Of a stretch of DNA of 64,000 nucleotides, positions 39,589 through 59,912 are shown one piece after another. The notes under the pieces were generated by a model. That model was not told where the DNA came from, made no database searches, and saw only the letters and a list, made by a program, of their open reading frames with translations. A program made the position numbers and the translations under genes. Source of the DNA: Aquamicrobium lusatiense (GTDB taxonomy: Bacteria; Pseudomonadota; Alphaproteobacteria; Rhizobiales; Rhizobiaceae); assembly GCF_014201615.1 (NCBI RefSeq), contig NZ_JACHEU010000002.1, positions 186,001-250,000 on the forward strand, given 5' to 3'. Position 1 is the stretch's first letter; each line of letters opens with the position of its first letter.

Positions 39589-39663
<75 letters not shown>

Positions 39664-41153: not shown

Positions 41154-41349
41154 GTCATTTCACCTGCTGTCGCCTCCGGATTGCAAAGAGCCAGCTTAAA
41201 TCCGTTACCCGCCGTAAAGGTCTGCAACCTCTCTTGCAATGCGCATGAACCACGCGATCCTTTGGTCCACTGAACCCGCGCCATCCTTGATTTGGACGCC
41301 ATGGCCATGTAGCCCGGTTCAGATGGCTGAAGCTGGAGGGGATCGTTTC

Positions 41350-42423: not shown

Positions 42424-42476
42424 CGATTTCGGCAATAAACTTTCCGTGATCGACGCCAAACTGGCCCAAGAAAACT

Positions 42477-42491
42477 TGACTATCTGGATCA
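42477..42491. promoter_or_regulatory. Iron-responsive operator (RirA-type, TGA-N9-TCA) upstream of fbpA
   Basis: TGA-CTATCTGGA-TCA exactly fits the 15-base iron-responsive motif of rhizobial RirA targets, 46 bases before the fbpA start and overlapping a TTGACT -35-like box at 42476-42481. RirA, an iron-sulfur repressor, would hold the importer off when iron is sufficient. RirA itself is not in the window. Confidence 0.6.
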
Positions 42492-42537
42492 TAAATGGTG
42501 CTCAGCTTGTGTAGCCCAACACAGGAGGAGAGGTTCC

Positions 42538-43560: not shown

Positions 43561-43567
43561 CATGGGA

Positions 43568-43600
43568 GAATGGCATCCTCGCGGATGCCATTCCATTTTT
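43568..43600 (+). terminator. Hairpin with T-run between fbpA and fbpB
   Basis: A perfect 11-base stem GAATGGCATCC/GGATGCCATTC with a TCGC loop, then CATTTTT, lies between the fbpA stop (43560) and the fbpB start (43602). It should cut transcription partly, lowering fbpB and protecting fbpA mRNA. Confidence 0.85.
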
Positions 43601-43601
43601 A

Positions 43602-45338
43602 ATGACCATGGCAGCAAGGGGTTCAGGATCGAACAGAAGGCGGCGCTCCGGCGCCGCCTGGCTCATTGTGGCGGGATTTGCCGCCCTTGGCGTCGCGCTG
43701 CCTTTTCTCGCCCTGTTTTTCGAGGCGCTGCACGGCTCGCAAGGGCTATGGGCGCATCTCTTCTCCACCATCCTGCCGGTTGCCCTGCGTGATACGCTGA
43801 TCCTGCTTGCCGGTGTCGGCATTCTGGTCGCCGTTCTCGGCACCGGAACGGCATGGCTGGTCACCGCTTACGAATTTCCCGGACGCCGCACGCTGGAATG
43901 GGCGCTGCTGCTGCCGCTGGCGGTCCCGACCTATATCGTCGCCTATACCTATCTCGACATATTGCACCCGATCGGCGTCGTTCAGGGCGCCATTCGCACC
44001 GTTCTCGGCTATTCCAGCCCGCGCGAATTCCGCCTGCCCGACATCCGTTCGATGACGGGCTGCATAATCCTGCTTTCCTTCGTGCTCTACCCTTACGTCT
44101 ACATCGCCACCCGCGCCATGTTCCTGACGCAGCCGGCAAGCCTGATCGAGGCGGCCCGCACGCTCGGCGTCTCGCGCCGGGCTGTGTTTTGGCGTGTCGC
44201 CCTGCCGCTGGCCCGGCCGGCCGTTGCGGTCGGCATCAGCCTTGCGCTGATGGAGACGCTGAACGACATCGGCGCCGCCGAATTCCTTGGCGTGCGCACG
44301 CTGACCGTATCGATCTACACGACATGGATCACCCGCTCCGACCTGCCGGGCGCATCGCAGATCGCACTTTCGCTGCTGGTCGTCGTGGTGGCGGTCGTAG
44401 CGCTTGAACACTATGCGCGGCGGCGCCAGCGCTTCGCGGCCGGCGCACAGCGCGGCGGCAAGAGCTTTGAACGCCATCGCGTGTCCGTCTCCACCGGAGC
44501 GCTGCTGCTGGTGCTCGGCCTGATACCTGTCCTGATCGGCTTCATCGGGCCAGCGCTTTATCTGGCGACGGAAGCCTGGGCCCGCATCGGCTATGCCGGC
44601 GTACCGCCACGCTTCCTGTCGACCGTATCGGGCACGATATTGCTTTCGGCGGCAGCCACCCTGCTCACGCTGGCGCTCGGTGCGGCAGCGGCCTATGCGG
44701 CGCGCATTCGGCCGGGCGGCTTTTCCGCTTCAGCCTTCCGCCTTTCCACCATCGGCTATGCCGCGCCCGGAACCGTCATCGCGATCGGGCTCGTTATCGT
44801 GCTGGGAGCCTTCGACCGCACGGTGAACGCACTGGCCGGGTCATGGTTCGGCATCTCCACCGGCCTCATCTTCCTAGGTTCGGGTGCGGCGCTGGTCTAC
44901 GCCTATACGGCGCGCTTCCTCGCCATTTCGGCGGGCGGAATGGCTGCCGGCCTCAGCCGCATCCCGCAATCGCTGGACGAGGTTTCGCGCACGCTCGGCG
45001 AAACCGCATCCGGCACCCTGCGGCGCGTGCATCTGCCCCTGTCGAAGACGGCGCTCGCCGCCGCCGCCCTGCTCGTCTTCGTCGATTGCGTGAAGGAGCT
45101 GCCGGCAACGCTGCTGCTGCGCCCGCTCAATGTGGAGACGCTGGCCACCCATCTTTATGGCGAGGCCGCGCGCGGCACCTATGAGGAGGCGTCGATTTCG
45201 GCGCTCGCCATCGTGCTGATCGCCCTGTTGCCGGTGGTGCTCCTGTCGCGCGTTGGCGCGGAGCGCAATCTGCGGCAGGCAGACACGCCGCTTGTGCCGC
45301 AGTCGCTGCCGTCAGTTCAGCAGCAGAACATCGCCTGA
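43602..45338 (+). CDS. fbpB: Ferric iron ABC transporter permease, double-domain
   Basis: The 578-residue inner-membrane protein holds two binding-protein-dependent permease domains, with EAA-like loops at LIEAARTLGVSRRAVFWRVALPLARPAV in the first and LDEVSRTLGETASGTLRRVHLPLSKTAL in the second. This fused type is normal for FbpB. About twelve hydrophobic segments are visible. The start is uncertain: ATG at 43602 comes directly after the T-run of the terminator and has no clear ribosome site; ATG at 43608 is equally poor. It overlaps the last 27 bases of the convergent ABC ATPase gene tail to tail. Confidence 0.9.
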   Translation: MTMAARGSGSNRRRRSGAAWLIVAGFAALGVALPFLALFFEALHGSQGLWAHLFSTILPVALRDTLILLAGVGILVAVLGTGTAWLVTAYEFPGRRTLEWALLLPLAVPTYIVAYTYLDILHPIGVVQGAIRTVLGYSSPREFRLPDIRSMTGCIILLSFVLYPYVYIATRAMFLTQPASLIEAARTLGVSRRAVFWRVALPLARPAVAVGISLALMETLNDIGAAEFLGVRTLTVSIYTTWITRSDLPGASQIALSLLVVVVAVVALEHYARRRQRFAAGAQRGGKSFERHRVSVSTGALLLVLGLIPVLIGFIGPALYLATEAWARIGYAGVPPRFLSTVSGTILLSAAATLLTLALGAAAAYAARIRPGGFSASAFRLSTIGYAAPGTVIAIGLVIVLGAFDRTVNALAGSWFGISTGLIFLGSGAALVYAYTARFLAISAGGMAAGLSRIPQSLDEVSRTLGETASGTLRRVHLPLSKTALAAAALLVFVDCVKELPATLLLRPLNVETLATHLYGEAARGTYEEASISALAIVLIALLPVVLLSRVGAERNLRQADTPLVPQSLPSVQQQNIA

Positions 45339-46376
45339 CGAAAAGCTGATCTCGACATGATCGCCGATCTGCGGCGGTGGCGTCGCAGGATTGTTGAACG
45401 TATCCAGCGAGACGATGCTGTCGCCCACCCTGACCCGGACCCGGATGACCGAGCCGAGGAAATGCACGTCGGCGATCTCGCCCGAAAGCATCGCGTCGTT
45501 GCCCTCGCGGTGGCCGAGGGCAATCGCCTCAGGGCGCAGCGCCAGCGACAGCGCATCGCCCGCCCTCACCCCTTCAGGCTCCTGCCGCAGCGAAAACGCG
45601 CCACTGCCGAGCTGCACCTTGCCTGCCGGCCCCAGCGTGCCTTCGAGCACGTTCAGCGTGCCGACGAAACCGGCCACGAAGCGCGTGGCGGGGCGGTTGT
45701 AGATCTCGAAGGCAGCGCCGACCTGCTCCACCTTGCCGCCATACATGACCACGATGCGATCCGAGATCGACAGCGCCTCTTCCTGATCATGGGTGACGAA
45801 AATGGTGGTGATGCCGAGCTTCTTCTGGATGGAGCGGATTTCCTCGCGCAGCGACACACGCACCTTTGCGTCCAGCGCCGACAGCGGTTCGTCGAGCAGC
45901 AGCACCTTCGGCCTTGGCGCGAGCGCACGCGCCAGCGCGATGCGCTGCTGCTGGCCGCCGGAGAGCTGATAGGGGTAGCGATTGCCGAACTCGCCGGCCG
46001 GCAGCTTGATGATGTCGAGCATCTCGGCGACGCGGCTGTCGATTTCGGCTTTCGGCACCCCGGCCACTTTCAGGCCGAAGCCGATGTTCTGCGCCACGGT
46101 GAGGTTGGGAAACAGCGCATAGGCCTGAAAAACCATGCCGATATTGCGCTGGTTCGGCTTCAATGCGGTGACATCCTTGCCGCCAATGACGATACGCCCC
46201 GCACTCGGCTCCTCGAAACCCGCCACCATGCGCAGAACCGTGGTCTTGCCGCAGCCGGAAGGGCCGAGGAAGGAAACGAATTCACCCGCTTCGACGTCGA
46301 GATTGAAATCCTGCACGACGGTGGTGGCACCGAAGGATTTGCGCACGTGCTGGATCGACAGGAAGGGCTCTGGCAT
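45312..46376 (-). CDS. ABC transporter ATP-binding protein (PotA/UgpC-like)
   Basis: The 354-residue ATPase drives the importer formed by the three genes upstream. Walker A is GPSGCGKTTVLRMVAGFEE, signature QLSGGQQQRIALARALAPRP, Walker B VLLLDEPLSALDAKVR, and a C-terminal TOBE domain runs from about residue 275. The sequence belongs to the group serving polyamines, iron, thiamine or phosphonates, and cannot fix the substrate. It starts 20 bases after the second permease gene. Its stop overlaps the end of fbpB by 27 bases, in the opposite direction. Confidence 0.92.
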   Translation of the reverse strand: MPEPFLSIQHVRKSFGATTVVQDFNLDVEAGEFVSFLGPSGCGKTTVLRMVAGFEEPSAGRIVIGGKDVTALKPNQRNIGMVFQAYALFPNLTVAQNIGFGLKVAGVPKAEIDSRVAEMLDIIKLPAGEFGNRYPYQLSGGQQQRIALARALAPRPKVLLLDEPLSALDAKVRVSLREEIRSIQKKLGITTIFVTHDQEEALSISDRIVVMYGGKVEQVGAAFEIYNRPATRFVAGFVGTLNVLEGTLGPAGKVQLGSGAFSLRQEPEGVRAGDALSLALRPEAIALGHREGNDAMLSGEIADVHFLGSVIRVRVRVGDSIVSLDTFNNPATPPPQIGDHVEISFSSGDVLLLN

Positions 46377-46396
46377 TGGCTGTGCGGTCTCCGTTC

Positions 46397-47188
46397 TCAG
46401 TGCTGAACGCCCGGCGCCTTGGGCGCGAACTTCGAGACGAACTGGATCAGGGCCATGCAGCCCCAGGTTATGGCAAAGGCGATCACGGCAAGTGCCGCCG
46501 GCTCATAGGCGCGGTTGGCGCCGAGCAACTGCATGTACGGGCCGAAGGATGGCCGGTTGAGCAGCGCCGCCATGACGAACTCGCCGATGACGATGGCGAA
46601 GGTGATGAAGGCGCCCGACAGAACCGCCACCGCCACATTCGGCAGGATCACCCGCGCAAGGATCGTGATCCATCCGGCACCAAGGCTCTGCGCGGCCTCC
46701 GTCAGCGTGGCGACGTCGATGGCGCGCAGGCCGGTATCCACCGCCCGGTACATGTAAGGCAGCGAAAGGATCACATAGCCGAACATCAGGAGCAGATTGG
46801 TGCCCATGGCCGAGCCGGTCAGCGGCAGCCATGACGAGGTGTTGTAGAGGCGGATATAGCCGAACACGATGACGATCGGCGGAATGATCAGCGGCAAAAG
46901 CGTGACGAATTCCAGAACCGGACGCCAGCGCGGCAGCTTCAGCCGAACCCAGTAGGCGGTTGGCACCACAAGCAGCACGCCGAAGGCGATGGTGGCGAGC
47001 GCCATCAGCACGGAATAGGTGAAGGTCTGCTGGAAGCGCGGATCGGCCAGCACCGTCCAGTAGGCATCGAGCGTGTAGGCGCCGCGACGCATCTTGAGCG
47101 AGAATTCGGCCGTGCTGACCAGCGGGAAAATGAAATAAAGCGCGCCAATGCCGAAGAACAGCCAGGACCAGATGCGGTTGATCTTCAT
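46397..47188 (-). CDS. ABC transporter permease (second of two)
   Basis: The 263-residue protein has six hydrophobic segments (IWSWLFFGIGALYFIFPLVSTAEF, then TYSVLMALATIAFGVLLVVPTAYW, VLEFVTLLPLIIPPIVIVFGYI) and the EAA loop LTEAAQSLGAGWITILARVILPNVAVAV. This is the PotC-like partner. The ATG at 47188 overlaps the stop of the first permease by four bases (ATGA), showing translational coupling. The frame is open far upstream, but that is the other gene's shadow. Confidence 0.93.
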   Translation of the reverse strand: MKINRIWSWLFFGIGALYFIFPLVSTAEFSLKMRRGAYTLDAYWTVLADPRFQQTFTYSVLMALATIAFGVLLVVPTAYWVRLKLPRWRPVLEFVTLLPLIIPPIVIVFGYIRLYNTSSWLPLTGSAMGTNLLLMFGYVILSLPYMYRAVDTGLRAIDVATLTEAAQSLGAGWITILARVILPNVAVAVLSGAFITFAIVIGEFVMAALLNRPSFGPYMQLLGANRAYEPAALAVIAFAITWGCMALIQFVSKFAPKAPGVQH

Positions 47189-48072
47189 TTCATCCACCTC
47201 TCGCTGCGGGCGCGAAGCCAGATATAGATGAAGTTCGCGATGCCGGTGATGACGATCATGCCGAAAGCGAGCGCATAGCCCAGATGCGGGTCTTGCAAGA
47301 CATCGCCCCGGATCTGCGCGAACAGCAGGATCGGCACGATGGACAGCGAGCTGCCGGTCAGCGCATAGGCGGTTGCGACCGCGCCGAAGGCATTGGCGAA
47401 CAGCAGCGCGAAGGTGCCGAGCAGGCTGGGCCACAGGATCGGCAGCGCCACCATGCGCCAGTACTGGAAGGGCGATGCCCCCAGAATGGAGGCAGCCTCG
47501 CGCCATTCGCGGCGCATGCCGTCCAGCGCCGGCGTCATGATCAGGATGGTCAGCGGAATCTGGAAGAACAGATAGGTCAGCGTCAGCCCGCCGAAGGATA
47601 GGATGTTGAAGCCCATTCCGTAAATATTGATGCCGAACCAGTCGCGCAGGATGAGCGTGACCAGGCCGAGCCGCCCGAAGGTGGCGAGAAATGCAAAGGC
47701 CAGCGGAATGCCGGCGAAATTGGAAGCGACGCCCGAGAAGGTGAGCATCGGCGAGCGCAACCATACGGGCAGCCCGCCCAGCACCATTGCCCATGCCATG
47801 AGGAAGCCGACAAGGCAGCCGAGCAGCGCGGAAGCCACGCTGATGCGGATCGAAATCCAGTAGGCCGCCATGATCGACGGCTGAAACAGGTTGATGATGT
47901 TGTCGAGCGTGAATTCGCCCGCCGCATTGCGGAAGGAGCCGACGATGATCTGCATGGTCGGCAAGACAAGAAACAGAAGCGCGAACAGCAGAAACGGCAT
48001 CACGCCAAGCCACGCAAACGACATGCGCGGGCGTGTTACCGCAGAAGCCGGCGCGGCGATCGATTGGCTCAT
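47185..48072 (-). CDS. ABC transporter permease (first of two)
   Basis: The 295-residue protein is the PotB-like partner: SFAWLGVMPFLLFALLFLVLPTMQIIVGSF is the first membrane segment, and the EAA loop is WREAASILGASPFQYWRMVALPILWPSLLG. I start at the ATG at 48072 (MSQSIAAPASAV), as the frame upstream of it is not conserved-looking. It is 166 bases after the binding-protein gene and overlaps the next permease by four bases. Confidence 0.92.
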   Translation of the reverse strand: MSQSIAAPASAVTRPRMSFAWLGVMPFLLFALLFLVLPTMQIIVGSFRNAAGEFTLDNIINLFQPSIMAAYWISIRISVASALLGCLVGFLMAWAMVLGGLPVWLRSPMLTFSGVASNFAGIPLAFAFLATFGRLGLVTLILRDWFGINIYGMGFNILSFGGLTLTYLFFQIPLTILIMTPALDGMRREWREAASILGASPFQYWRMVALPILWPSLLGTFALLFANAFGAVATAYALTGSSLSIVPILLFAQIRGDVLQDPHLGYALAFGMIVITGIANFIYIWLRARSERWMK

Positions 48073-48238
48073 GCGCGACACATGCCTTCTTCCCGCGATC
48101 ACCGCGCACTTTAACAGCCACGCTCTGGCGATCTTACCCCTCTGTAGAGGCAATGGGCGAAACCGGTGCGGCTTCGCACAATGCCCGGTCGCTCCGGCGC
48201 GGTTCCCTGCGGAGCCGCGCCGGATTGTTCAGGCCGCC

Positions 48239-49339
48239 TTACTGGACGTTGGCGCCGACGACGCTGTCCCAGCCGCCGGTGACGGCGTTCTTGTTGGCAT
48301 CCTGTTCCTCAAGCGTCGGGAACACGGCCTTGGTGTAGGCCTCCGCCGGCGGCAGCTTGTCGAGGATTTCCTGCGGCACCTTGCCCTCGGAAACCAGCTG
48401 GTTGAAACGGGCCGGGTGGCAGTAGCCCTTCAGGAAGCCGATCTGGCCCTCGTCGGAATAGATGTATTCCAGCCACAGCTTGGCGGCGTTCGGATGCGGC
48501 GCATGGGCGCTGATCGCCTGCGCGTAAACGCCGGCGAGAACACCGCTCTTCGGCACCACGACCTCAACCGGCGGGTTGCCGTTCAGCGTGTCGCGGTCCG
48601 CAAGGGCGTTGTAGTCCCAGCGCACGATGATCGGCGTGGTGCCCTGCGCAAGCGAAGAGGCCTTGCCGATGACCGGCACGAAATTGCCCTTCTCGTTGAG
48701 CTGCTTGAAGAAGTCGAGACCGGCTTCCGAAGCCTTGGAGGCGTCGCCGCCGGCAGCCGAAAGACCCGCAGCATAGACCGACAGGATCGCCTGGTTCGCC
48801 GCGCGCGGATCACCCGCCAGCGCAACGGAATTGGCATATTCGGGCTTCAGCAGATCGGCCCAGTCCTGCGGCACTTCCTTGACGATGTCGGTGTTCACCT
48901 CGAAGGCGAGAACGCCATAATAGCCGCCGTACCAGTGGCCATCCGGATCCTTGACCTCGATGCCGTCGAAGGTCGAAACCTTGTAAGGCAGGAGGAGTCC
49001 TTCCTTGGTGGAGGACGGGCCGAAGGCGAGACCGACGTCGATCACGTCAGGAGCCTGCGGACCGGTGTTGCCCTTGTTGGCGCGGATCGCCTCAATCTCG
49101 TCGGCCGAGCCGGCGTCCGGGTTCAGTTCATTGATGGTGATTTCCGGATACTTGGCCTTGAAACCGGCCAGAATGCCTTCCCATCCGCACCAGTCGTGCG
49201 GCAGGGCGATGGTGGTCAGCATGCCTTCCTTCTTGGCCGCCTCGACGATTTCATCCAGCGACTGGGCGGACGAAATGGCCGACGTGACCATCAGAGCGGT
49301 TGCCGTTACGGACAGTACCTTCCCCGCAAACTTGAACAT
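48239..49339 (-). CDS. ABC transporter substrate-binding protein, substrate unknown
   Basis: The 366-residue protein has a signal peptide (VLSVTATALMVTSAISSAQ) and an extracellular solute-binding domain of the PotD/FbpA superfamily (EGMLTTIALPHDWCGWEGILAGFKAKYPEITINELNPDAGSADEI..., then VALAGDPRAANQAILSVYAAGL and IIVRWDYNALADRDTLNG). GGAG lies eight bases before the ATG. This type binds polyamines, iron, thiamine or phosphonate derivatives. It leads the ABC operon, separated by 223 bases from the alcohol dehydrogenase gene on the same strand, so it may have its own promoter yet belong to the same catabolic regulon. Confidence 0.88.
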   Translation of the reverse strand: MFKFAGKVLSVTATALMVTSAISSAQSLDEIVEAAKKEGMLTTIALPHDWCGWEGILAGFKAKYPEITINELNPDAGSADEIEAIRANKGNTGPQAPDVIDVGLAFGPSSTKEGLLLPYKVSTFDGIEVKDPDGHWYGGYYGVLAFEVNTDIVKEVPQDWADLLKPEYANSVALAGDPRAANQAILSVYAAGLSAAGGDASKASEAGLDFFKQLNEKGNFVPVIGKASSLAQGTTPIIVRWDYNALADRDTLNGNPPVEVVVPKSGVLAGVYAQAISAHAPHPNAAKLWLEYIYSDEGQIGFLKGYCHPARFNQLVSEGKVPQEILDKLPPAEAYTKAVFPTLEEQDANKNAVTGGWDSVVGANVQ

Positions 49340-49562
49340 CTCGTTATCTCCATTGAGCTGACGCCTTGTGACGCCTGCGACGCGGTAGCGAGTTCATGTG
49401 ACGTTTGGATGAAAGCCAGATGAAACCCGCCCGCCACAAAGTGAAAGGCTAAACTACTTTGACCGATACTAGCAATCGGCCCCTATTATTTTCCGGCTAA
49501 ATAATACCCTCCTGCTTCCCCTCTGGAGTTTCTGTTGCGGTCCGGGCAGCTTATGCCGCTTC

Positions 49563-50735
49563 TCAGACGGTTCCGGTGAGAGCGCCCTCAAGCAGTCTGA
49601 GCGCGCCTTCCTTGGTCAGCTTGAGCGGATTTCCGCCAGCGGTCGGATCGACGATGGCCATTTCCGCGATGAGGTCCTTGCGTGTGGCATCCATATCGAG
49701 GTCCTTGATCAGGCCCGGCAGCGTATGCGGAACTTTCAGTTCCTCACGCAGCCTGATGATTGCCGCCGCAAATCCATCGAACCCGCCCTCAATGCCGCAA
49801 TAGGCTGCGAGCCGCTCGATGCGTTCCTCGATCGCCTCGCGGTTGAAGGCCAGCACATAGGGCATGAACACGGCATTGGTCATGCCGTGGTGGGTGTCGT
49901 AAAGCGCGCCGCTCGGGTGCGACAGCGAGTGGATGGCGCCAAGCCCCTTCTGGAACGCGGTGGCGCCCATGGCCGCCGCCGACATCATGTTGGCGCGGGC
50001 GATCAGATCCGAGCCGTCATGGAACGCCTTCGGCAGGTTTTCCAGAACCAGACGAACACCTTCCACGGCAATGCCGTCGGCCATGGGGTGATAGCCCGGT
50101 GCGCAATAGGCTTCGAGGCAGTGCGCCAGCGCATCCATTCCGGTGCCGGCGGTGATGAAGGGCGGCATTCCGGCGGTCAGCTCCGGATCGGCAATCACGA
50201 TGGCCGGCATCATCTTCGGGTGGAAGATGACCTTCTTGGTGTGCGAGGCCTCATGCGTGATGACACCCGCGCGGCCAACCTCCGAGCCGGTTCCGGCCGT
50301 GGTCGGCACCGCCACGATCGGCACGATCTTGTCCGCGTCGGCGCGCGTCCACCAGTCGCCGATGTCCTCGAAGTCCCACACCGGGCGGCTCTGCCCGGCC
50401 TGGAAGGCGATCAGCTTGCCGAGATCGAGCGCCGAGCCGCCGCCGAAGGCGATGACGCCGTCATGGCCGCCCTTGTTGAAGACCTCGATGCCGGCCGTCA
50501 GATTGGACTCAACCGGGTTCGGCTTGACGTCGGAGAACACGCCGTAGGGCACCTTGGCGGCATCGAGAATGGCCAGTGTCGAGGCAACCACGGGCAGCTT
50601 CGCCAGACCCGGATCGGTGACGAAGAGCGGGTTGCTGATGCCGGTGGAAGCAAGCGCTGCCGGCAACTCGTTGATGCGGCCGACTCCGAAGAAAACGGTG
50701 GTCGGATAATTCCATTTGGAGACGGGATTGGTCAT
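49563..50735 (-). CDS. Iron-containing alcohol dehydrogenase
   Basis: The 390-residue enzyme belongs to the Fe-ADH family, which oxidises alcohols (or reduces aldehydes) with NAD(P). The coenzyme-binding part is VIAFGGGSALDLGKLIAF, and the metal ligands lie in GTGMDALAHCLEAYCAPGYHP and GLGAIHSLSHPSGALYDTHHGM. Known relatives act on ethanol, propanediol, 4-hydroxybutyrate and amino alcohols. It follows the aldehyde dehydrogenase by 94 bases on the same strand. In this operon the natural order would be alcohol to aldehyde, then aldehyde to acid by the neighbour. Confidence 0.95.
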   Translation of the reverse strand: MTNPVSKWNYPTTVFFGVGRINELPAALASTGISNPLFVTDPGLAKLPVVASTLAILDAAKVPYGVFSDVKPNPVESNLTAGIEVFNKGGHDGVIAFGGGSALDLGKLIAFQAGQSRPVWDFEDIGDWWTRADADKIVPIVAVPTTAGTGSEVGRAGVITHEASHTKKVIFHPKMMPAIVIADPELTAGMPPFITAGTGMDALAHCLEAYCAPGYHPMADGIAVEGVRLVLENLPKAFHDGSDLIARANMMSAAAMGATAFQKGLGAIHSLSHPSGALYDTHHGMTNAVFMPYVLAFNREAIEERIERLAAYCGIEGGFDGFAAAIIRLREELKVPHTLPGLIKDLDMDATRKDLIAEMAIVDPTAGGNPLKLTKEGALRLLEGALTGTV

Positions 50736-50778
50736 GTAGATGATCTTTCGATGGGGAAGCCAGATTGGGAGCCGATGT

Positions 50779-50823
50779 CCGTCATTCCGTGGAACGCGGC
50801 GAAGCCTGTATCCGGAATGACGG
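50779..50823. repeat. Palindromic repeat between the two dehydrogenase genes, arms CCGTCATTCCG / CGGAATGACGG
   Basis: Two 11-base arms enclose 23 bases rich in GC, in the gap between the aldehyde and alcohol dehydrogenase genes. The sequence has the form of REP-like palindromes that recur in rhizobial genomes. It may stabilise the upstream part of the transcript or reduce read-through. Confidence 0.65.
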
Positions 50824-50829
50824 CGAACA

Positions 50830-52218
50830 TCAGATCTTTTCCTTCAGATGGTAGCTCTTCGGGCGTGTCAGGTTGTCGTAGCCGATGGCCGACAATGCCG
50901 CGCCCTTGCCGGTGTCCTTCACGCCGGTCCACACCAGCGCCGGATCGAGATAGTCGCAGCGGTTCATGAAGACGGTGCCGGTTTCGACCCGGTCGCCGAT
51001 CGAAATCGCGTGCTCTGTATCGCTGGTCCAGATCGAGGCCGTGAGACCATACGGGCTGTCGTTCATCAGCGCGATGGCCTCTTCGTCATTGCGCACCTTC
51101 ATGATGCCGACGATAGGGCCAAAGCTCTCTTCGCGCATAACGCTCATCTGGTGATCGACATTGGTGAGCACTTCCGGCCCGATATAGGGCGAACCGGCGA
51201 CGTCGCCGTCGACCTTCATGTTGATATGCGCAACCGCGCCCTTGCGCAGGGCTTCGGCCTTCTGCTCGCGGATCAGGTCGGCAAAGCGCGCATGCGCCAT
51301 CGGCCCGAGCGTCGTGGACTGCTCCAGCGGATTGCCCACCACATAATTCTTCGTCTCGGCAATGAAGCCTTCCACGAACTGGTCATAGACCTTCTCGTGC
51401 ACATAGACGCGCTCGATGCCGCAGCAGCACTGCCCCGAATTGAAGAACGCGCCGTCGACAAGGCTGGCGACCGCATTTTCTATGCTCGCATCCGGCAGCA
51501 CATAGGCGGGATCCTTGCCGCCGAGCTCGAGGCCGAGCGTCATGAAGGTGCCGGCGGCTGCCTTTTCGATGGCACGCCCTCCCCCCACCGATCCGGTGAA
51601 GTTGACATGGTCGATCTTGCCGGAACCGAGCAGCTTCTCGGTCTGGCCGTGGTTGAGCACGACGTTCTGGAACACGCCCTTCGGCAGACCGGCCATCTCG
51701 AAGGCTTTGGCGAAGCGCTCGCCCACCAGCAGCGTCTGGGCCGCGTGCTTGAGGATCACCGTCGAGCCGGCCATCAGTGCCGGAACGATGGTGTTGACCG
51801 CCGTGAGATAAGGATAGTTCCACGGCGCGATGACCATCACCACGCCCAGCGGCTCCTTCTTCACATAGCGGCGGAAACCGTCCTTCGGATTGGCTGCGGC
51901 GACCGGCTTCAGGGCCTGTTCGGCAATTTCGATCATATAGGAAGCGCGCTCGCGCACGCCGCCGAATTCGCCGCCATAGCGAACCGGACGGCCCATCTGC
52001 CACGCGATTTCCGGCACGACCTCGTCGGTCATGGAGAAAAGCGCTTCCAGCATGGCGAGCATGTATTTGCCGCGCTCGGCGACTGATACCTGCGCCCAGC
52101 CGGACTGGGCAGCGCGGGCGCGCTCGACGGCAGCGTTGAGCGCCTGATCGGTCGCGACCGATCGTTCGGCGTAGACCGAGCCGTCGATCGGAGAGATGAG
52201 CTTGACCGTTTCGGTCAT
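50830..52218 (-). CDS. NAD-dependent aldehyde dehydrogenase
   Basis: The 462-residue enzyme oxidises an aldehyde to the acid. Visible motifs are APWNYPYLTAVNTIVPALMAGSTVILK (coenzyme), the catalytic Glu in TLGLELGGKDPAYVL (about residue 250) and the catalytic Cys in FFNSGQCCCGIERVYVHEKV. An unusual triple Cys (CCC) sits at the active site. The protein is slightly shorter than the common 480-500 residues, lacking some N-terminal residues. It lies between the glutamine-synthetase-family ligase and the alcohol dehydrogenase on one strand, and the genes are separated by about 100 bases each. Confidence 0.95.
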   Translation of the reverse strand: MTETVKLISPIDGSVYAERSVATDQALNAAVERARAAQSGWAQVSVAERGKYMLAMLEALFSMTDEVVPEIAWQMGRPVRYGGEFGGVRERASYMIEIAEQALKPVAAANPKDGFRRYVKKEPLGVVMVIAPWNYPYLTAVNTIVPALMAGSTVILKHAAQTLLVGERFAKAFEMAGLPKGVFQNVVLNHGQTEKLLGSGKIDHVNFTGSVGGGRAIEKAAAGTFMTLGLELGGKDPAYVLPDASIENAVASLVDGAFFNSGQCCCGIERVYVHEKVYDQFVEGFIAETKNYVVGNPLEQSTTLGPMAHARFADLIREQKAEALRKGAVAHINMKVDGDVAGSPYIGPEVLTNVDHQMSVMREESFGPIVGIMKVRNDEEAIALMNDSPYGLTASIWTSDTEHAISIGDRVETGTVFMNRCDYLDPALVWTGVKDTGKGAALSAIGYDNLTRPKSYHLKEKI

Positions 52219-52333
52219 GGTTGTCGTCCTTCGTCAGTTGTCCGGGCGGACACACCGCCCCATTTCCTGCAGTTCCGGCTGTTCCGGAAAGAGCCGCTGC
52301 CCTGCAGCCGCTCCCTCCGGAATCTGGCTGTGC

Positions 52334-53704
52334 TCAGTAGCGCTCGAAACCGCGATGCAGTTCCCAGTCGGTGATGCGCCGGTCATACTCCATCTGCTCC
52401 CAGCGGGCCGTATGGACATAATGCTCCACCACATCGTCGCCGAAGGCCTGCCGCAGCAGCTTCGACTTGTTCAGGGTCTCGGTCGCGTCGCGCAATGTCT
52501 TGGGAATTTCGGGAAGTCTGGAGGCCTGATAGGCGTCGCCCACGAACGGCTTCTGCAGTTCCAGCTTCTCGTCGAGACCGGCAAGGCCGGCGGCGATGAG
52601 CGCAGCGAATGCCAGATAGGGATTGAGGTCCGCGCCGCCGATCCGGCATTCCATGCGGATCGCCTTGCTGCCCTCGCCGCACAGGCGGAAGCCGGCGGTG
52701 CGGTTGTCTTCCGACCACATGATCTTGGTCGGCGCGAAGGTGCCGGCCTGAAAACGCTTGTAGGAGTTGATGTAGGGCGCGAGGAAATAGGTATACTCGC
52801 GTGCGTATTTGATCTGGCCGGCCGACCACTGGCGACCGAGTTCGGACAATGTCCACGGTGCGTTCTTGTCGAAGAACAGCGGCGTCTTGCCGTCGGCGCT
52901 CCACACCGAATTGTGGATGTGGCTGGAATTGCCGGCAAGATCGTAATTGTACTTGGCCATGAAGGTCACGGCCTTGCCTTCCTGATGGGCGATCTCCTTG
53001 GCCCCGTTCTTCATGAAGACATGGCGGTCGGCCATTTCGAGCGCTTCGGCATAGCGGCCGTTGATTTCCTCCTGGCCTGGCCCCCATTCGCCCTTGGAAC
53101 ACTCGATCGGGATGCCCGCCGCGCTCAGCTCATTGCGCAGCCGCCGCATATACCCCTCTTCCTTGGAGGTGATATCGATCAGATAGTCACCGATATAGGG
53201 AGAGGCCGTGTCGAGCTTCTGCCAGTACTTGTCACGGGCAGTCGCATAGGTTTCCGAAAACAGGAAGAATTCCAGCTCGGAGGCGAAATAGGCGATGTAG
53301 CCGCGCTCCTCCAACCTCTTGAGCTGGCGGCGCAGAATGCCGCGCGGCGAATGCGGCAGATCCTCGCGGGTATGGTGATCCTGCGCGTCGCAGATCACCA
53401 GCGCCGTCTTTTCCAGCCATGGCACGGGGCGGATGGTCGACAGGTCGGGCTTCATGACGAAGTCGCCATAGCCCTTCGACCAGCTTGCCGCCTTGTAGCC
53501 GGGCACCGGCTCCATATCGATGTCGTCTGCCATCAGATAGTTGCAGCCATGCGTCTCTTCATAGGCGGAATCGACGAAGAACTGCGCCACGAAGCGCTTG
53601 CCGATGAGACGCCCCTGCATGTCGACAGATGCCGTCAGAACGGTATCGATTTCGCCCGAGGCGACTGCGCTCTTCAATTGATCGAACGAAAGTTTTCCGG
53701 CCAT
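52334..53704 (-). CDS. Glutamine synthetase family ligase (gamma-glutamylamine ligase-like)
   Basis: The 456-residue protein has the GS catalytic domain: FASELEFFLFSE with the first metal Glu, EWGPGQEEINGRYAEALEMADRHVF with two more ligands, GNSSHIHNSVW with the ammonium-side His, INSYKRFQAGTFAPTKIMWSEDNRTAGFRL with the Arg/Pro loop, and ECRIGGADLNPYLAFAALIAAG. It lacks the adenylylation loop of GlnA, so it is not the housekeeping enzyme. Relatives such as PuuA and GlnA4 attach glutamate to putrescine or ethanolamine. The catabolic context (TRAP transporter, dehydrogenases, an amidohydrolase) fits a gamma-glutamylation step on an amine. Confidence 0.9.
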   Translation of the reverse strand: MAGKLSFDQLKSAVASGEIDTVLTASVDMQGRLIGKRFVAQFFVDSAYEETHGCNYLMADDIDMEPVPGYKAASWSKGYGDFVMKPDLSTIRPVPWLEKTALVICDAQDHHTREDLPHSPRGILRRQLKRLEERGYIAYFASELEFFLFSETYATARDKYWQKLDTASPYIGDYLIDITSKEEGYMRRLRNELSAAGIPIECSKGEWGPGQEEINGRYAEALEMADRHVFMKNGAKEIAHQEGKAVTFMAKYNYDLAGNSSHIHNSVWSADGKTPLFFDKNAPWTLSELGRQWSAGQIKYAREYTYFLAPYINSYKRFQAGTFAPTKIMWSEDNRTAGFRLCGEGSKAIRMECRIGGADLNPYLAFAALIAAGLAGLDEKLELQKPFVGDAYQASRLPEIPKTLRDATETLNKSKLLRQAFGDDVVEHYVHTARWEQMEYDRRITDWELHRGFERY

Positions 53705-53798
53705 TCTCTTCTCCGCCGCCCCTGCAGCTGCATGATTGCGAATTCAGTTCAAAATCTGGAAAGAGGTCCGGCCACCGGAGCGGCCGGACCGAAATACA

Positions 53799-54869
53799 TC
53801 AGCCGTAGCGATAAGGTGCGCCGGCCTTGCGCATCGTGTCCTGATACTTTTTCAGGATTTCAACGACCTTGGCGTTGCGCTCGCTCTTGGCGGCGATTTC
53901 GTCCCAGAACTCCATCGCCATGTCCTCGACGCCCTTCCACTCCTCTTCGGGAATGGTGGTGAGTTCGAGCTTGCCGCCGGTGGTGCGGTAGTGCGCCTCG
54001 CCCCACCAGTACCAGTGCTGGCGATAATAGTGCGAGGAATCCATCGCCAGATTGAACAGCGTCTTGAGATGATCGGGCACCGCGTTCCATTTGTCGGTGT
54101 TGGCGAAGAACGAGCCTGACCATGCGCCCGAGATGTTGTTGGTGAGATAGTATTTGGTGACATCCGCCCAGCCCACCGTGTAGGTTTCGGTGGCGCCGCA
54201 CCATGCGATACCGTCGATCTCGCCGGTCTGGAGCGCGACTTCGATGTCTTCCCACGGCAGGGTAACCGGCACCACGCCAAGGCGCGAGATGAACTGGCCG
54301 CCGGTCGGGAAGGTGTAGACACGCAGGCCCTTCAGGTCCGCCACCGAGCGGATCGGCTTGGTGGTGGCGAAGTTGCACGGATCCCATGCGCCGGCGCTGA
54401 GCCAGGTCACGCCGGGGACCTCGCCATAGGCTTCTTCCCAGATCTCCTTCAGGCCATACCAGTTCCACAGCACCGGAACGTCGAGGCTGTAACGCGAGGC
54501 GAATGGGAAGTAGGCGCCGAACACGGCGACATCCACGGGCGACGCCATGGAATCATCGTCGCTCTGGGCGGCGTCGATGGTGCCAGTCTGCACGGCGCGA
54601 AACAGTTCGCCCTGCGGCACGAGCTGGTCGGCGGTGTACATCTCGATCACCATCTCGCCATTGGCCGCCTTGTTGAACGCGTCGATGGCCGGCTTGCAGA
54701 CGTGGTCGGCAAGCGCCGGGCCGGCATAGGTCTGGAGGCGCCACTTGATCGGCGCCTGCGCCTTCACATAGGGGGTGGCAAGTGCCGTGGCGCCCACGGC
54801 GCCAGCCCCTGTCAGAACGGATTTGCGCAGGAAATCGCGCTTGCTGATGGTCTTCTTGCTGTCGGTCAT
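53799..54869 (-). CDS. TRAP transporter periplasmic substrate-binding protein
   Basis: The 356-residue protein starts with a twin-arginine-like signal (KKTISKRDFLRKSVLTGAGAVGATALATPYVKA). The mature part belongs to the DctP-like family, closest in look to the TakP branch for carboxylate-type ligands: WRLQTYAGPALADHVCKPAIDAFN, VEIMYTADQLVPQGELFRAVQTG-like segment, LRVYTFPTGGQFISRLGVVPVTLPWEDIEVALQTGEIDGIAWCG. AGGGAGC precedes the ATG. It feeds the two membrane subunits encoded next. The likely ligand is an organic acid or an acid-bearing amine. Confidence 0.93.
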   Translation of the reverse strand: MTDSKKTISKRDFLRKSVLTGAGAVGATALATPYVKAQAPIKWRLQTYAGPALADHVCKPAIDAFNKAANGEMVIEMYTADQLVPQGELFRAVQTGTIDAAQSDDDSMASPVDVAVFGAYFPFASRYSLDVPVLWNWYGLKEIWEEAYGEVPGVTWLSAGAWDPCNFATTKPIRSVADLKGLRVYTFPTGGQFISRLGVVPVTLPWEDIEVALQTGEIDGIAWCGATETYTVGWADVTKYYLTNNISGAWSGSFFANTDKWNAVPDHLKTLFNLAMDSSHYYRQHWYWWGEAHYRTTGGKLELTTIPEEEWKGVEDMAMEFWDEIAAKSERNAKVVEILKKYQDTMRKAGAPYRYG

Positions 54870-54978
54870 GAGTTGCTCCCTCTGTTATGTCGAACCGTCA
54901 ACGCTTCACTCACTCGGGCGGGCCGGCATGTTTCGCCCCGCCCCACGCCTTCCGGAAACAAGGCGCATATGGCTCATC

Positions 54979-56307
54979 TCAGCGCTTGCCCATGTAGGTC
55001 TCAGGCAACCACATCGCGATGTCCGGGAAGATCATGATAATGATCATCGTCAACACCATCATGAAGAAGAACGGAATGATCGACTTGTAGATGTCGACAA
55101 TGGTGATTTCCGGCGGCGCCATGGCGCGCATCAGGAACAGATTGTAGCCGAAGGGCGGCACGATATAGGCGATCTGACAGGTGATCGTATAAAGAATGCC
55201 GAACCAGATCAGATCGAAACCGAGCGCCTTGACCAGCGGAATGTAGAGCGGCGCGACGATGACCAGCATCGCGGTGTCGTCGAGGAACATGCCAAGGATG
55301 ATGAAGGAAAACAGCATCATCGACAACACGCCCCACGGGCTCAGCTCCCAGGTGTGAAGCAGCAGGTTCTCGATCGCCTTGATGGCCCCCAGACCGTCGT
55401 AGACGGCACTGAAGCACAACGCGCCAAGGATGATCCACAGGAACATCGCCGAGACCGACAGCGTGTTGCGCGTCGTCTCCTCCATCACGCTCTTCGTCAG
55501 GCGCCCGGTGAACAGCGCGGCCAGCAGCGCCAGAAGCGCACCGACCATCGAGGTTTCAACCAGACTGGTGGTGCCGGTGAGGAACAGGCCCATGATCGTG
55601 GCGAACAGGCCGAAAGGCAGCAGGCCCGCGCGCAGCAGAACCAGCTTCTCGCGCATGGTGATCTGGCTGAGTTCCTCCTTCGAGAGCGCTGGTCCCATCT
55701 CGGGCTGCAGGCGGCAGCGTATATAGATGTAGGCGGTGAAGATGATCGCCATCAGGATGAACGGCCCGATGCCGGCAAGCCACAGTTGCAGAACCGGCTG
55801 GCGCGCGATCATCGCATAGAGGATGAGCACCACCGAAGGCGGCCCCATGATGCCGAGCGACGAGCCGCCCTGAATGACGCCCGTGATCATCGTCTTGTCG
55901 TAGCCGCGGCGCAGCAGTTCCGGCAGCGCCACCGTCGCTCCTATGGCCATGCCCGCCACCGACAGGCCGTTGACCATCGAAATGATGATCATCAGGCCCA
56001 TGGTGCCAATGGCAAGACCGCCGCGCACAGACCCGAACCAGACATGGAACATGCGGTAGAGATTGGTGGCGATGCCGGATTCCGAGAGCATGTAGCCCAT
56101 GAAGACGAAGAACGGCACGGTGATCAGCGGATACCAGTTGAGCACCTGGAAAGCCGCATTGAACGGCATTTCGGCCGCGCCATCGCCCCACAGCCACAGT
56201 GCCGCACCGGCGCCCACCGCGCCGATGACTCCGAACACGCGCTGCCCCGTCGCCATGAGCAGCAGCATGGACGCGAACATGAAAAGGGTGATCAGTTCCG
56301 AACTCAT
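54979..56307 (-). CDS. TRAP transporter large permease subunit
   Basis: The 442-residue membrane protein is the DctM-type subunit, with about twelve hydrophobic segments: ITLFMFASMLLLMATGQRVFGVIGAVGAGAALWLWG, VLNWYPLITVPFFVFMGYML, ITGVIQGGSSLGIMGPPSVVLILYAMI and a C-terminal MVLTMIIIMIFPDIAMWLP. It uses the sodium gradient to import the ligand bound by the TRAP binding protein. It starts inside the stop of the small subunit gene (ATGA, four bases overlap), a standard pairing. Confidence 0.95.
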   Translation of the reverse strand: MSSELITLFMFASMLLLMATGQRVFGVIGAVGAGAALWLWGDGAAEMPFNAAFQVLNWYPLITVPFFVFMGYMLSESGIATNLYRMFHVWFGSVRGGLAIGTMGLMIIISMVNGLSVAGMAIGATVALPELLRRGYDKTMITGVIQGGSSLGIMGPPSVVLILYAMIARQPVLQLWLAGIGPFILMAIIFTAYIYIRCRLQPEMGPALSKEELSQITMREKLVLLRAGLLPFGLFATIMGLFLTGTTSLVETSMVGALLALLAALFTGRLTKSVMEETTRNTLSVSAMFLWIILGALCFSAVYDGLGAIKAIENLLLHTWELSPWGVLSMMLFSFIILGMFLDDTAMLVIVAPLYIPLVKALGFDLIWFGILYTITCQIAYIVPPFGYNLFLMRAMAPPEITIVDIYKSIIPFFFMMVLTMIIIMIFPDIAMWLPETYMGKR

Positions 56308-56816
56308 GTCAGCGGCTTCCCACGCGCTTCAGCCACGTTCTTGAAGAAGGTGGAAATGGATTGCAGCAGCATCAGGAAGATGCCGAATGTCATGATCGTC
56401 TTGATCGGCCACAGAGGCGGCGCCCAGGCCGTGTAATTCTTCTGGCCGTAGGTGATGGCATATTCCGTGGACGACATGCCCGCACGGAACAGCACCGCCA
56501 GATAGAAGATGACGAAAAGAATGGTGAAAGCATCGGTCATCGCACGGCGGCGCGGCGACATCATGCCGTAGAACAGGTCCATGCGCACATGCGCATCGAT
56601 CTGCAGGGAATAGGCTCCGCCCAGCAGATAATATGCCGACAGCATGAACTGCGACATCTCCATGACCCAGTTGACCGGGTAGCCGAAGACGACGCGCATG
56701 ACCGTCGAGTAGAGCAGTATCGCGCCCATCGGAAAGATCAGATACATCGCGAAACGACCGACCCGATAGCCGATCGCATCGACCCAGCGAACGTAGAGCC
56801 TGATGGGTTCAGGCAT
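56304..56816 (-). CDS. TRAP transporter small permease subunit
   Basis: The 170-residue DctQ-like protein has four membrane segments: MYLIFPMGAILLYSTVMRVVFG, WVMEMSQFMLSAYYLLGGAYSL, AMTDAFTILFVIFYLAVLFRAGM and a last IKTIMTFGIFLMLLQSIST. It pairs with the large subunit; the ATG at 56816 (MPEPIRLYVRWVDAIGYRVG) overlaps the stop of the amidohydrolase gene by eight bases, and its stop overlaps the next start by four. The frame upstream of 56816 is open but belongs to the neighbour's shadow. Confidence 0.93.
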   Translation of the reverse strand: MPEPIRLYVRWVDAIGYRVGRFAMYLIFPMGAILLYSTVMRVVFGYPVNWVMEMSQFMLSAYYLLGGAYSLQIDAHVRMDLFYGMMSPRRRAMTDAFTILFVIFYLAVLFRAGMSSTEYAITYGQKNYTAWAPPLWPIKTIMTFGIFLMLLQSISTFFKNVAEARGKPLT

Positions 56817-57597
56817 TGACGCCTCCCTTGTCTCCCCCAGTGTTGCCGCCGACATGGATGTTGGCGAGCAGCGAGCCGAGCAGTTCCGCCCATTTGCGCT
56901 GGCCGGCCGCGTCGGCGATCTCGTCATTGCGGATTTCGATCATCGCGCAGGCAAGCCCACGCGCGCGGGCGTGATGCTCCAGCGTGAAATAAACCAGATC
57001 AGCGGGTGAATAGGGCTCATTCGCCCCCACCCTGATGCCGGCCACGGAATTCAGCGCGCGCAGCAATGGCGCTGAAATGCGCTCGTCCTCATCGTGGATG
57101 ATTCCGATGTGCCAGGGCCGCTTTTCTCCGAAATAGACCGGCGTGTAGGAATGGACGGATACCAGCCGCGTCTCGCGTCCCGCGGCCAGCCGCTCCTCGA
57201 TGGTGGCGGCGATCGTGTTGTGAAACGGCCTCCACGCAAGATCGACGCGCGCCTGCCTTTGATCGGGCGTCAGGCCGGCATTGCCGGGTATGGTCGTGGT
57301 TTCGCTGGTTGCCGGGATCAGATTGTGCGCATCGAGCGGGCGGTTGCAGTCGATCACCAGACGCGACATGCAGGTTTCGATCAGCGTGGCATCGAGCGCA
57401 TTCGCCATCACGGTCGCGACCGCCAAAGCGCCGGGGTCCCAGGCTATGTGACGCTGAAAATCATCCTGCGACAGGCCAAGCGTTCCGATTTCGGCCGGCA
57501 TGTAGTTGGATGCATGGTCGCAGGTGAACACATAAGGGCTTTGCCCTCCCGGATTCGTAACCCTGACAGCCTGCTCTGATGAACGCTCGTTCCCCAT
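56809..57597 (-). CDS. N-formylglutamate amidohydrolase family protein, transporter operon copy
   Basis: The 262-residue protein is a short FGase-like hydrolase: VFTCDHASNYMPAEIGTLGLSQDDFQRHIAWDPGA (metal/His region), LIETCMSRLVIDCNRPLDAHNLIP, LVSVHSYTPVYFGEKRPWHIGIIHDE and ARGLACAMIEIRNDEIADA. It may hydrolyse an N-acyl or gamma-linked glutamate derivative made in the same pathway. GGAGAG lies before the ATG. It is the first gene of the TRAP operon, and its start is 142 bases from the divergent RpiR gene. Confidence 0.88.
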   Translation of the reverse strand: MGNERSSEQAVRVTNPGGQSPYVFTCDHASNYMPAEIGTLGLSQDDFQRHIAWDPGALAVATVMANALDATLIETCMSRLVIDCNRPLDAHNLIPATSETTTIPGNAGLTPDQRQARVDLAWRPFHNTIAATIEERLAAGRETRLVSVHSYTPVYFGEKRPWHIGIIHDEDERISAPLLRALNSVAGIRVGANEPYSPADLVYFTLEHHARARGLACAMIEIRNDEIADAAGQRKWAELLGSLLANIHVGGNTGGDKGGVNA

Positions 57598-57619
57598 AGC
57601 TCTCCGTTCCCCAGGCGAC

Positions 57620-57633
57620 GTATCATATGTTAC
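57620..57633. promoter_or_regulatory. Dyad GTATCATATGTTAC between the RpiR gene and the TRAP operon
   Basis: A 14-base near-perfect dyad (GTA-n-CATATG-n-TAC) in the 142-base divergent gap, 22 bases before the amidohydrolase start. AT-rich blocks lie next to it. It is a candidate RpiR-family operator, with no consensus match to support the choice. Confidence 0.35.
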
Positions 57634-57739
57634 TTATTGTTTTTCATTTCGCCTTGACGGATGATTTCATACACATTGCTCAGCTTTGTCAAATCCGTTT
57701 TATCGGGCTCTGGCCCAATCGCTTCCAAATGGGGATATC

Positions 57740-58567
57740 ATGAACTCCAGCATCGCCGAGCTTATCACGGAGCGCATCGATGACATGCCGGCCGGCGAAC
57801 GGCGGGCAGCACAGACGCTGATCGCCAACTATCCGCTGCTGGGTCTGAAGACGGTGGCGGACTTCTCGCAGCAGGCCGGAGTGTCGTCCCCCACCATCCT
57901 GCGCTTCGTCGCCCGGCTGGGGTTTCACAACTACGCCGAGTTTCAGGCCACGCTTCAGGACGAGCTTGCCGCGCAGCTGCAATCGCCCGCCTCGCGCACC
58001 TATGCGCCGAGCAGCCGCGGCAAGGGCGCGGTCTCGCCGATGCTGGAGGCAACCCTCGACAATCTGCGTGAGACATTCCGTCATATTTCCGACCGCCAGC
58101 TTGAGGATATCGCCGCCTGTCTGGCGGAAAAGCGCGGGCATCTGTTTTTGATTGGCGGCCGCTTTACCGATCCGCTGGCCCGTTACACGGCTGCCCATCT
58201 GGCCATCATCCGCCCGAACGTCTTTCATCTGGCGGGGCAGGAAAGCATGTGGCGCGACCGGCTCATCGACATGGGCAAGCAGGATATCGTGCTGATCTTC
58301 GACATCCGCCGCTATCAGGACAGCCTGCTGCGTTTCGCCGAAAAAGCGCACCAGCGCGGCGTTGCCATCGTGCTCGTCACCGATCAGTGGCTGTCGCCCA
58401 TATCGCGCTTCGCCAAATATGTGGTGGCAGGCCGCACCGCCATGCCTTCGGCCTGGGATTCCTCGGCTTCGCTTTTCGTCATAGCGGAATCGCTGATCGA
58501 CGCCGTCACAAGACGCCTTGAAACGGAAGGCGCCAGACGTATCCGCGAGATGGAAGGCCTGCGCTGA
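57740..58567 (+). CDS. MurR/RpiR-family transcriptional regulator
   Basis: The 275-residue regulator has an N-terminal helix-turn-helix (TLIANYPLLGLKTVADFSQQAGVSSPTILRFVARLGFHNYAEFQATLQDEL) and a C-terminal SIS sugar-phosphate-like domain (HLFLIGGRFTDPLARYTAAHLAIIRPNVF, then DIVLIFDIRRYQDSLL). I use the ATG at 57740, after GGGGA, and the rest of the open frame upstream is weak. RpiR proteins often sense a phosphorylated or acidic metabolite; this one probably controls the divergent transporter operon. The effector is unknown. Confidence 0.93.
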   Translation: MNSSIAELITERIDDMPAGERRAAQTLIANYPLLGLKTVADFSQQAGVSSPTILRFVARLGFHNYAEFQATLQDELAAQLQSPASRTYAPSSRGKGAVSPMLEATLDNLRETFRHISDRQLEDIAACLAEKRGHLFLIGGRFTDPLARYTAAHLAIIRPNVFHLAGQESMWRDRLIDMGKQDIVLIFDIRRYQDSLLRFAEKAHQRGVAIVLVTDQWLSPISRFAKYVVAGRTAMPSAWDSSASLFVIAESLIDAVTRRLETEGARRIREMEGLR

Positions 58568-58738
58568 AACGCATCTTCTGCAAGGGGTTGAGCAACCTTA
58601 CGCAGATTTAATGTGCTTTGACACCGGAGAATTGTCATAAAGGTTGGGTACCGGGCACGATGTGCATTTCGTGGTACCCTGCGCTTGAATTCCACGCTCG
58701 GAATGCGGCGCGCAGTTTGGCAGACGACCGGAGTTTCG

Positions 58739-59881: not shown

Positions 59882-59912
59882 AGGCCGTCCCCGGAAATAA
59901 CGAGACCATGCC

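Follow-up and report, generated by a model that had tools for sequence, protein, structure and literature searches.

A locus of Aquamicrobium lusatiense with the gene order of the ethanolamine gamma-glutamylation operon and a putative additional ABC importer

Results

Genes of the locus

The stretch analysed here is 64,000 nucleotides of Aquamicrobium lusatiense DNA (assembly GCF_014201615.1, contig NZ_JACHEU010000002.1, positions 186,001 to 250,000), referred to as the window, and it carries a candidate locus for the gamma-glutamylation of ethanolamine (eto). The genome is 4.39 Mb and the locus lies on its contig 2. An earlier note, made from the letters alone, had described eleven minus-strand genes and a divergent RpiR regulator on the plus strand. 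Pfam and open reading frame (ORF) checks confirmed this run, with one ORF split into two genes: the 574-aa ORF at 46397-48121 consists of two overlapping permease genes. The eleven genes have no internal stops and are separated by gaps of -8 to 223 bp, the gap of 223 bp being that between FeADH and the ABC solute-binding protein. Along the minus-strand run, the Pfam families are ABC (ATP-binding cassette) ATPase, two ABC permeases, SBP_bac_6, Fe-ADH, Aldedh, Gln-synt_C, DctP, DctM, DctQ and FGase, of which the three Dct families make up a TRAP (tripartite ATP-independent periplasmic) transporter. The DctQ gene most likely starts at 56816, giving 170 aa, and RpiR most likely starts at the ATG at 57740, the longest RpiR ORF beginning at a TTG at 57686. 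The features are as follows.

57740..58567, plus strand: RpiR-family regulator, 275 aa (Pfam HTH_6 and SIS)
57660..57693, minus strand: intergenic block TTTGACAAA-N13-TATGAAATCATC, putative promoter/operator (word conservation before FGase)
56809..57597, minus strand: FGase-family amidohydrolase, proposed gamma-glutamylglycine hydrolase (Pfam FGase, 162.6 bits)
56304..56816, minus strand: TRAP small permease DctQ, EtoV (Pfam DctQ)
54979..56307, minus strand: TRAP large permease DctM, EtoW (Pfam DctM)
53799..54869, minus strand: TRAP ethanolamine-binding protein DctP, EtoX (match to 4uab/4xf5)
52334..53704, minus strand: glutamine-synthetase-like ligase, proposed ethanolamine gamma-glutamylase (Pfam Gln-synt_C)
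50830..52218, minus strand: aldehyde dehydrogenase, proposed for the gamma-glutamyl aldehyde (Pfam Aldedh and place in the operon)
49563..50735, minus strand: iron alcohol dehydrogenase, proposed gamma-glutamylethanolamide dehydrogenase (Pfam Fe-ADH and place in the operon)
48239..49339, minus strand: ABC solute-binding protein SBP_bac_6, proposed second ethanolamine importer (Pfam)
47185..48072, minus strand: ABC permease A (Pfam BPD_transp_1)
46397..47188, minus strand: ABC permease B (Pfam BPD_transp_1 in the C-terminal part of the 574-aa ORF; ATG at 47188)
45312..46376, minus strand: ABC ATPase (Pfam ABC_tran and TOBE_2)

Relation to published ethanolamine systems

In Phaeobacter MED193, an operon with consecutive locus tags has been published in the order RpiR-GGAH-EtoV-EtoW-EtoX-ETAGA-GAADDH-GETADH (PMC10132767, Sci Adv 2023), where GGAH is gamma-glutamylglycine amidohydrolase, ETAGA ethanolamine gamma-glutamylase, GAADDH gamma-glutamylacetylaldehydeamide dehydrogenase and GETADH gamma-glutamylethanolamide dehydrogenase. 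The window has RpiR divergent from FGase-DctQ-DctM-DctP-GS-ALDH-FeADH (GS, glutamine synthetase; ALDH, aldehyde dehydrogenase; ADH, alcohol dehydrogenase), which agrees gene for gene with MED193, including the regulator beside the hydrolase and the family of the TRAP binding protein. Since the same order is in print, the seven-gene core of the window is a member of the published system, and an unknown pathway was rejected as an explanation. The earlier note had not recognised this gene set and had left its substrate open; neither view holds, as the published order and a close relative of the TRAP binding protein, Csal_0678, point to ethanolamine. We consider it very probable from these comparisons that the locus encodes the published eto pathway with ethanolamine as its substrate, in a variant with an extra ABC importer. 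The MED193 figure legend names no ABC genes within the operon, whereas the window adds a solute-binding protein (SBP), two permeases and an ATPase downstream.

The MED193 genes are described as close kin of those shown in Chromohalobacter salexigens and Agrobacterium tumefaciens C58 (PMC10132767). For ethanolamine use by C. salexigens, PF00120, PF00465, PF00171 and PF05013 have been listed (PMC9397018), the same enzyme families as in the window, and the TRAP protein there is Csal_0678. The GlnA4 (SCO1613) pathway of Streptomyces coelicolor likewise begins by glutamylating ethanolamine, and its last step has been proposed for an enzyme of the formylglutamate amidohydrolase family; however, its legend gives a short-chain dehydrogenase, a putative ethanolamine transporter and a glutamine amidotransferase, with no TRAP set (PMC6529630). 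The ethanolamine ammonia-lyase pathway (EutBC) has its substrate in common with the eto pathway but differs in chemistry, and EutB (PF06751) had no match in the genome of the window.

The gene order recurs in other genomes, and the run is therefore not a chance group. A. defluvii DSM 11603 (L015) has the same 11-gene run, with RpiR, HlyD and RND (resistance-nodulation-division) genes on one side and a convergent permease on the other; the ligases of A. defluvii and A. terrae are 90-91% identical to that of the window. Five plasmid records were compared (one of them, L012, unannotated). The eto order is annotated, without the ABC genes, on plasmids of Ruegeria sp. B32 and Paracoccus denitrificans PD1222, and another plasmid (L013) has TRAP, ligase, ALDH and ADH genes but not FGase. 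In a family sample of 247 genomes, 143 contained the ABC SBP, 120 contained EtoX and 184 contained the ligase. Ligase neighbourhoods were compared in 148 of these 184, the weakest matches being left out, and 129 of the 148 loci held RpiR, FGase, ligase, ALDH and iron ADH together. One further eto cluster, in a record titled Bacillus subtilis SK6B4 (L024, JAHREI010000002.1), shows identities like those of Pseudochrobactrum loci and probably comes from a mislabelled or mixed assembly. Downstream of FeADH in Mycoplana (L016) and Shinella (L018) lie ORFs of one family, that of L016 being a chemoreceptor with a protoglobin domain.

The TRAP binding protein

The window's DctP matches 4uab/4xf5, the C. 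salexigens protein Csal_0678, with an E value of 4.2e-153 and 68% identity. The solved structure of Csal_0678 contains ethanolamine, with Glu220 holding both its amine and its hydroxyl (PMC12410723), and the protein does not have the arginine that selects carboxylates in other TRAP proteins (PMC4646407). By sequence alignment, Glu228 of the window pairs with position 217 of the 4uab chain, and residue 40 with chain position 30, which is residue 33 in the numbering of the entry; entry numbers are thus chain positions plus 3, and Glu228 corresponds to the platform residue Glu220. At least 98% of 147 related sequences retain this glutamate, which is invariant in an alignment of 20 rows. The predicted DctP structure is of fair quality (pLDDT, predicted local distance difference test, 72.3).

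In MED193, five proteins of the operon are increased on phosphoethanolamine and EtoX binds ethanolamine with a Kd of 7.9 uM (PMC10132767). These two observations, made on a relative of the window's operon, together with the co-occurrence of the locus with ethanolamine ammonia-lyase and ethanolamine-permease-like proteins described below, make it unlikely that the operon serves mainly some other small amino alcohol, such as 2-amino-1-propanol (alaninol), which would yield gamma-glutamylalanine and alanine. Gene content by itself cannot separate C2 from C3 amino alcohols, and ethanolamine ammonia-lyase accepts 2-aminopropanol too. Moreover, 4xf5 is a second structure of Csal_0678, with 2-amino-1-propanol as its ligand.

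EtoX-type genes also occur in other settings. On a Chelatococcus plasmid (L011), EtoVWX-type TRAP genes lie near eutBC, and on that plasmid and a Paracoccus plasmid (L013), the neighbours of EtoX-type TRAP genes include an FGGY kinase and a pair of FAD oxidoreductases, an arrangement possibly linked to the use of glycerophosphoethanolamine.

The ligase and the hydrolase

The ligase has a glutamine synthetase catalytic domain, so an ordinary glutamine synthetase in a chance group of genes has to be considered. It scores 242.8 bits against GlnA (NCBIfam TIGR00653), with a cut-off of 429.15, and also falls under the cut-off for type III glutamine synthetase, while a better GlnA, at 470 bits, is encoded elsewhere in the same genome. 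With the gene order kept across genomes as well, we find this explanation hardly credible, and an ordinary glutamine synthetase was rejected on the cut-offs. The ligase is 24-29% identical to the seven other GS-domain proteins of the genome; besides GlnA and the eto ligase, the genome has six GS-like proteins (L002, L003, L005, L006, L007 and L008). Where GlnA of the same genome has FDGSS and GYEAP, the ligase has VPGYK and GTFAP, and so is without the residues that handle ammonium in GlnA, Asp50 and Glu327. In contrast, at least 97% of 179 sequences retain E206, H262, R335, E352 and R354. The nearest solved relatives are 11zs (785 bits) and 5dm3 (540 bits), the latter being the product of the gene adjoining Csal_0678.

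The Puu pathway for putrescine follows the same logic as proposed here: the substrate is glutamylated, oxidised and deglutamylated. The window's ligase is far under the cut-off for gamma-glutamylputrescine synthetase (188.6 bits against 650 for NCBIfam NF045547), and a Puu ligase was rejected on this score. The FGase-family protein has 2odf as its nearest solved relative (E 8e-56) and scores 35.2 bits against HutG (NCBIfam TIGR02017), with a cut-off of 278.75, and an N-formylglutamate deformylase of the HutG type was likewise rejected.

Hydrolase and ligase appear to change together. Among the best 80 of 217 confirmed stretches with EtoX, 55 contained the ligase, 53 ALDH, 53 iron ADH, 48 FGase and 47 RpiR. 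The next counts, and those of importers at the family loci below, rest on identity thresholds of our own choosing. Where the ligase was at least 50% identical, FGase was present in 42 of 43 EtoX loci and a class-I amidotransferase (PF00117) in none of the 43; where it was 29-50% identical, FGase was present in none of 12 and the amidotransferase in eight. This would be consistent with FGase and the amidotransferase carrying out the same last step. Ten of these 12 loci come from records titled Halomonas or its kin, or Gammaproteobacteria, which makes lineage a confounder for the pairing. Six neighbouring ORFs matched no Pfam family and are perhaps not genuine genes.

Regulator and intergenic region

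RpiR is divergent from FGase in 129 of the 148 family loci and probably controls the divergent operon. In the 129 RpiR-FGase intergenic regions, TTTGACAA was found in 61, GTATGAAA in 45 and TATGAAATCA in 38. The block listed above is a probable promoter/operator of the operon, a function suggested by this conservation of words; scans for sigma-70 promoters and terminators gave no more matches than shuffled sequences. Two RpiR subtypes, at least 50% and less than 50% identical, have different upstream words in these loci: TATGAAATCA occurs in 38 of 63 loci of the first and 0 of 66 of the second, and GAATTCTTCA in 0 of 63 and 42 of 66, respectively. A 14-base palindrome at first read into the upstream words of one subtype occurred in 0 of 129 regions and was dropped.

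Importers at the family loci

Before the ligase, the 148 loci hold a TRAP set in 69 cases, an amino-acid permease of a first kind in 48 and one of a second kind in ten. Two of the ten second-kind permeases were scored and both had the ethanolamine permease as best model (360.8 and 361.6 bits; cut-off 381.75), and one of them is 86% identical to a permease beside EutC in L272; the first kind is unlike it (22% identity over part of the length). With an ethanolamine-permease-like protein in the place of the TRAP set (ten loci, L216 and L131 among them), the occupant of the importer slot is in itself a pointer to ethanolamine.

The ABC importer is present in 104 of the 148 loci, accompanied by the TRAP set in 36, the first permease in 47 and the second in ten, and alone in 11. 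Loci without it have TRAP alone (33), the first permease alone (1) or none of these importers (10). Taking one genome per genus (G000-G109 minus G073, by genus column), it is present in 43 of 61 loci. In 104 of the 114 genomes in which both were listed, no more than 15 kb separate its SBP from the ligase. Of the 104 ABC loci, 51 have the SBP downstream of the ligase and on its strand, 48 have it upstream and on the opposite strand, and five have it in other positions. We had considered that the ABC importer simply replaces TRAP; this was rejected, as an amino-acid permease fills the TRAP slot in most such loci (47 and ten), and the ABC importer is therefore mostly additional.

The ABC importer and ethanolamine ammonia-lyase

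An ABC importer that carries ethanolamine would be expected to accompany ethanolamine ammonia-lyase as well. EutB was present in 41 of the 247 genomes and was largely exclusive of the ligase (12 of 184 ligase-positive against 29 of 63 ligase-negative genomes). Within the 63 ligase-negative genomes, EutB was found in 22 of 24 with the ABC SBP and in seven of 39 without it (Fisher 6.5e-9, a value that, like the others here, is descriptive, as the genomes are related); with one genome per genus, the counts were 13 of 15 and four of 18 (p 3.6e-4). The SBP of the neighbouring ABC importer, taken as a control, showed no association with EutB (14/34 against 15/29, p 0.45), nor did its close matches alone (4/8 against 25/55, p 1.0). 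Overall, 141 of 143 genomes with the ABC SBP have either the ligase or EutB, compared with 72 of 104 without it.

We think it reasonably likely from these patterns that the ABC genes encode a second importer, for ethanolamine or a precursor of it. The earlier note had recorded the importer without giving it a role; its presence stands, and comparative genomics now ties it to the use of ethanolamine. No description of an ABC importer for ethanolamine was found in open-access full text, although the early original eto studies may mention one.

Several observations weigh against this assignment or against the eto reading as a whole. The link between SBP and EutB is weak in ligase-positive genomes (11/119 against 1/65, p 0.06), and in only one of the 22 genomes (G042) are EutB and the ABC SBP no more than 15 kb apart. 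In L272, about 10 kb at most separate the ABC genes from EutB, EutC and the ethanolamine-permease-like gene, whereas in the other 21 of the 22 genomes EutB is more distant or on another contig. Two genomes with the SBP (G036 and G078) have neither ligase nor EutB. The ABC importer is rarely the sole importer (11 of 104 ABC loci). A structure search with the SBP gave 5t1p as nearest, with an unnamed ligand, followed by a broad range of binding proteins. The listed words that are conserved upstream of FGase hardly occur upstream of the SBP (10-base words in 0-1 of 105 regions, 8-base words in 0-9 of 105), so common control of the ABC genes and the operon is shown by position only. Finally, 25 of the 80 EtoX loci are without the ligase and also without EutB or EutC in the 3.6-21 kb examined; among EtoX loci with no GS, EutB or EutC in the examined stretch are L045, L049 and L061, the first of which has a flavin-type oxidoreductase downstream.

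It is thus possible, though we hold it to be somewhat doubtful, that the ABC importer carries another compound, either an ethanolamine-bearing precursor such as glycerophosphoethanolamine or an unrelated amine, and is merely co-located with the operon or feeds the pathway indirectly. Its relatives include polyamine, iron, sugar-phosphate and aminoethylphosphonate systems, and no specific cut-off was reached. The best NCBIfam models of the ATPase were PhnT2 (432.7 bits; cut-off 457.7) and PotA-like ones (347.8 bits; potA subfamily cut-off 355.6), and the SBP scored 44.3 bits against the 2-aminoethylphosphonate binding protein (NF011620; cut-off 310) and 31 bits against PotD (cut-off 582). The unshared intergenic words, the TRAP or amino-acid permease already present in most ABC loci and the two genomes with neither ligase nor EutB are all in keeping with another cargo. 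On the other hand, the importer takes two main layouts beside the ligase, and it goes with EutB in nearly all ligase-negative genomes that carry it. Furthermore, eight of the 11 loci with the ABC importer alone have less than 350 bp before the ligase, a gap to the preceding gene that is too short to accommodate another importer; the other three have no scored gene close upstream.

Neighbouring genes

The control importer is a second ABC system at 41239-45338 on the plus strand, with an ATPase, an SBP_bac_6 protein and a 578-aa permease ORF; it is convergent to the eto-linked importer and overlaps the ATPase gene of the latter by 27 bp. On the other side, an HlyD-type adaptor and an AcrB-type RND pump (58685-63041, plus strand) adjoin RpiR, and such a pair adjoins the eto cluster in 56 of the 148 family loci. 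The sole tRNA found in the window is a tRNA-Val (gac) at 39589-39663 on the plus strand.

Discussion

We suggest that in A. lusatiense ethanolamine would enter through the TRAP transporter DctPQM (EtoXVW) and, we infer, through the ABC importer as well. The GS-like ligase would then use ATP to join ethanolamine and glutamate into gamma-glutamylethanolamide, the iron ADH and the ALDH would convert the alcohol to the aldehyde and the acid, gamma-glutamylglycine, and the FGase-family enzyme would cleave this to glycine and glutamate, so that glutamate would be recycled. The earlier note had proposed the same succession of import, glutamylation, two oxidations and hydrolysis by the FGase-family enzyme, and this succession matches the model that has been published for genes in this order. 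Each enzymatic step is assigned to A. lusatiense by analogy with that model.

Taken together, we lean towards regarding the ABC genes as an undescribed ethanolamine importer of this bacterial family, which would stand beside interchangeable first importers, TRAP or either kind of amino-acid permease, and be kept when ammonia-lyase replaces glutamylation. The pathway would then be modular, with the importer and, in other lineages, the ligase and hydrolase swapped around a fixed pair of dehydrogenases.

Many bacteria use ethanolamine, a head group found in one of the major membrane lipids, as a source of nitrogen and carbon. The pathway itself is already known, and the analysis adds the testable prediction that the ABC genes import ethanolamine or a precursor. 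The joint switch of hydrolase and ligase gives a means of testing the least documented step, the FGase-like cleavage. If the ABC importer does take ethanolamine, many binding proteins now labelled as iron or putrescine/spermidine transport would need re-annotation, and bacteria that live in soil or with plants would possess an uptake route overlooked by EtoX-based surveys.

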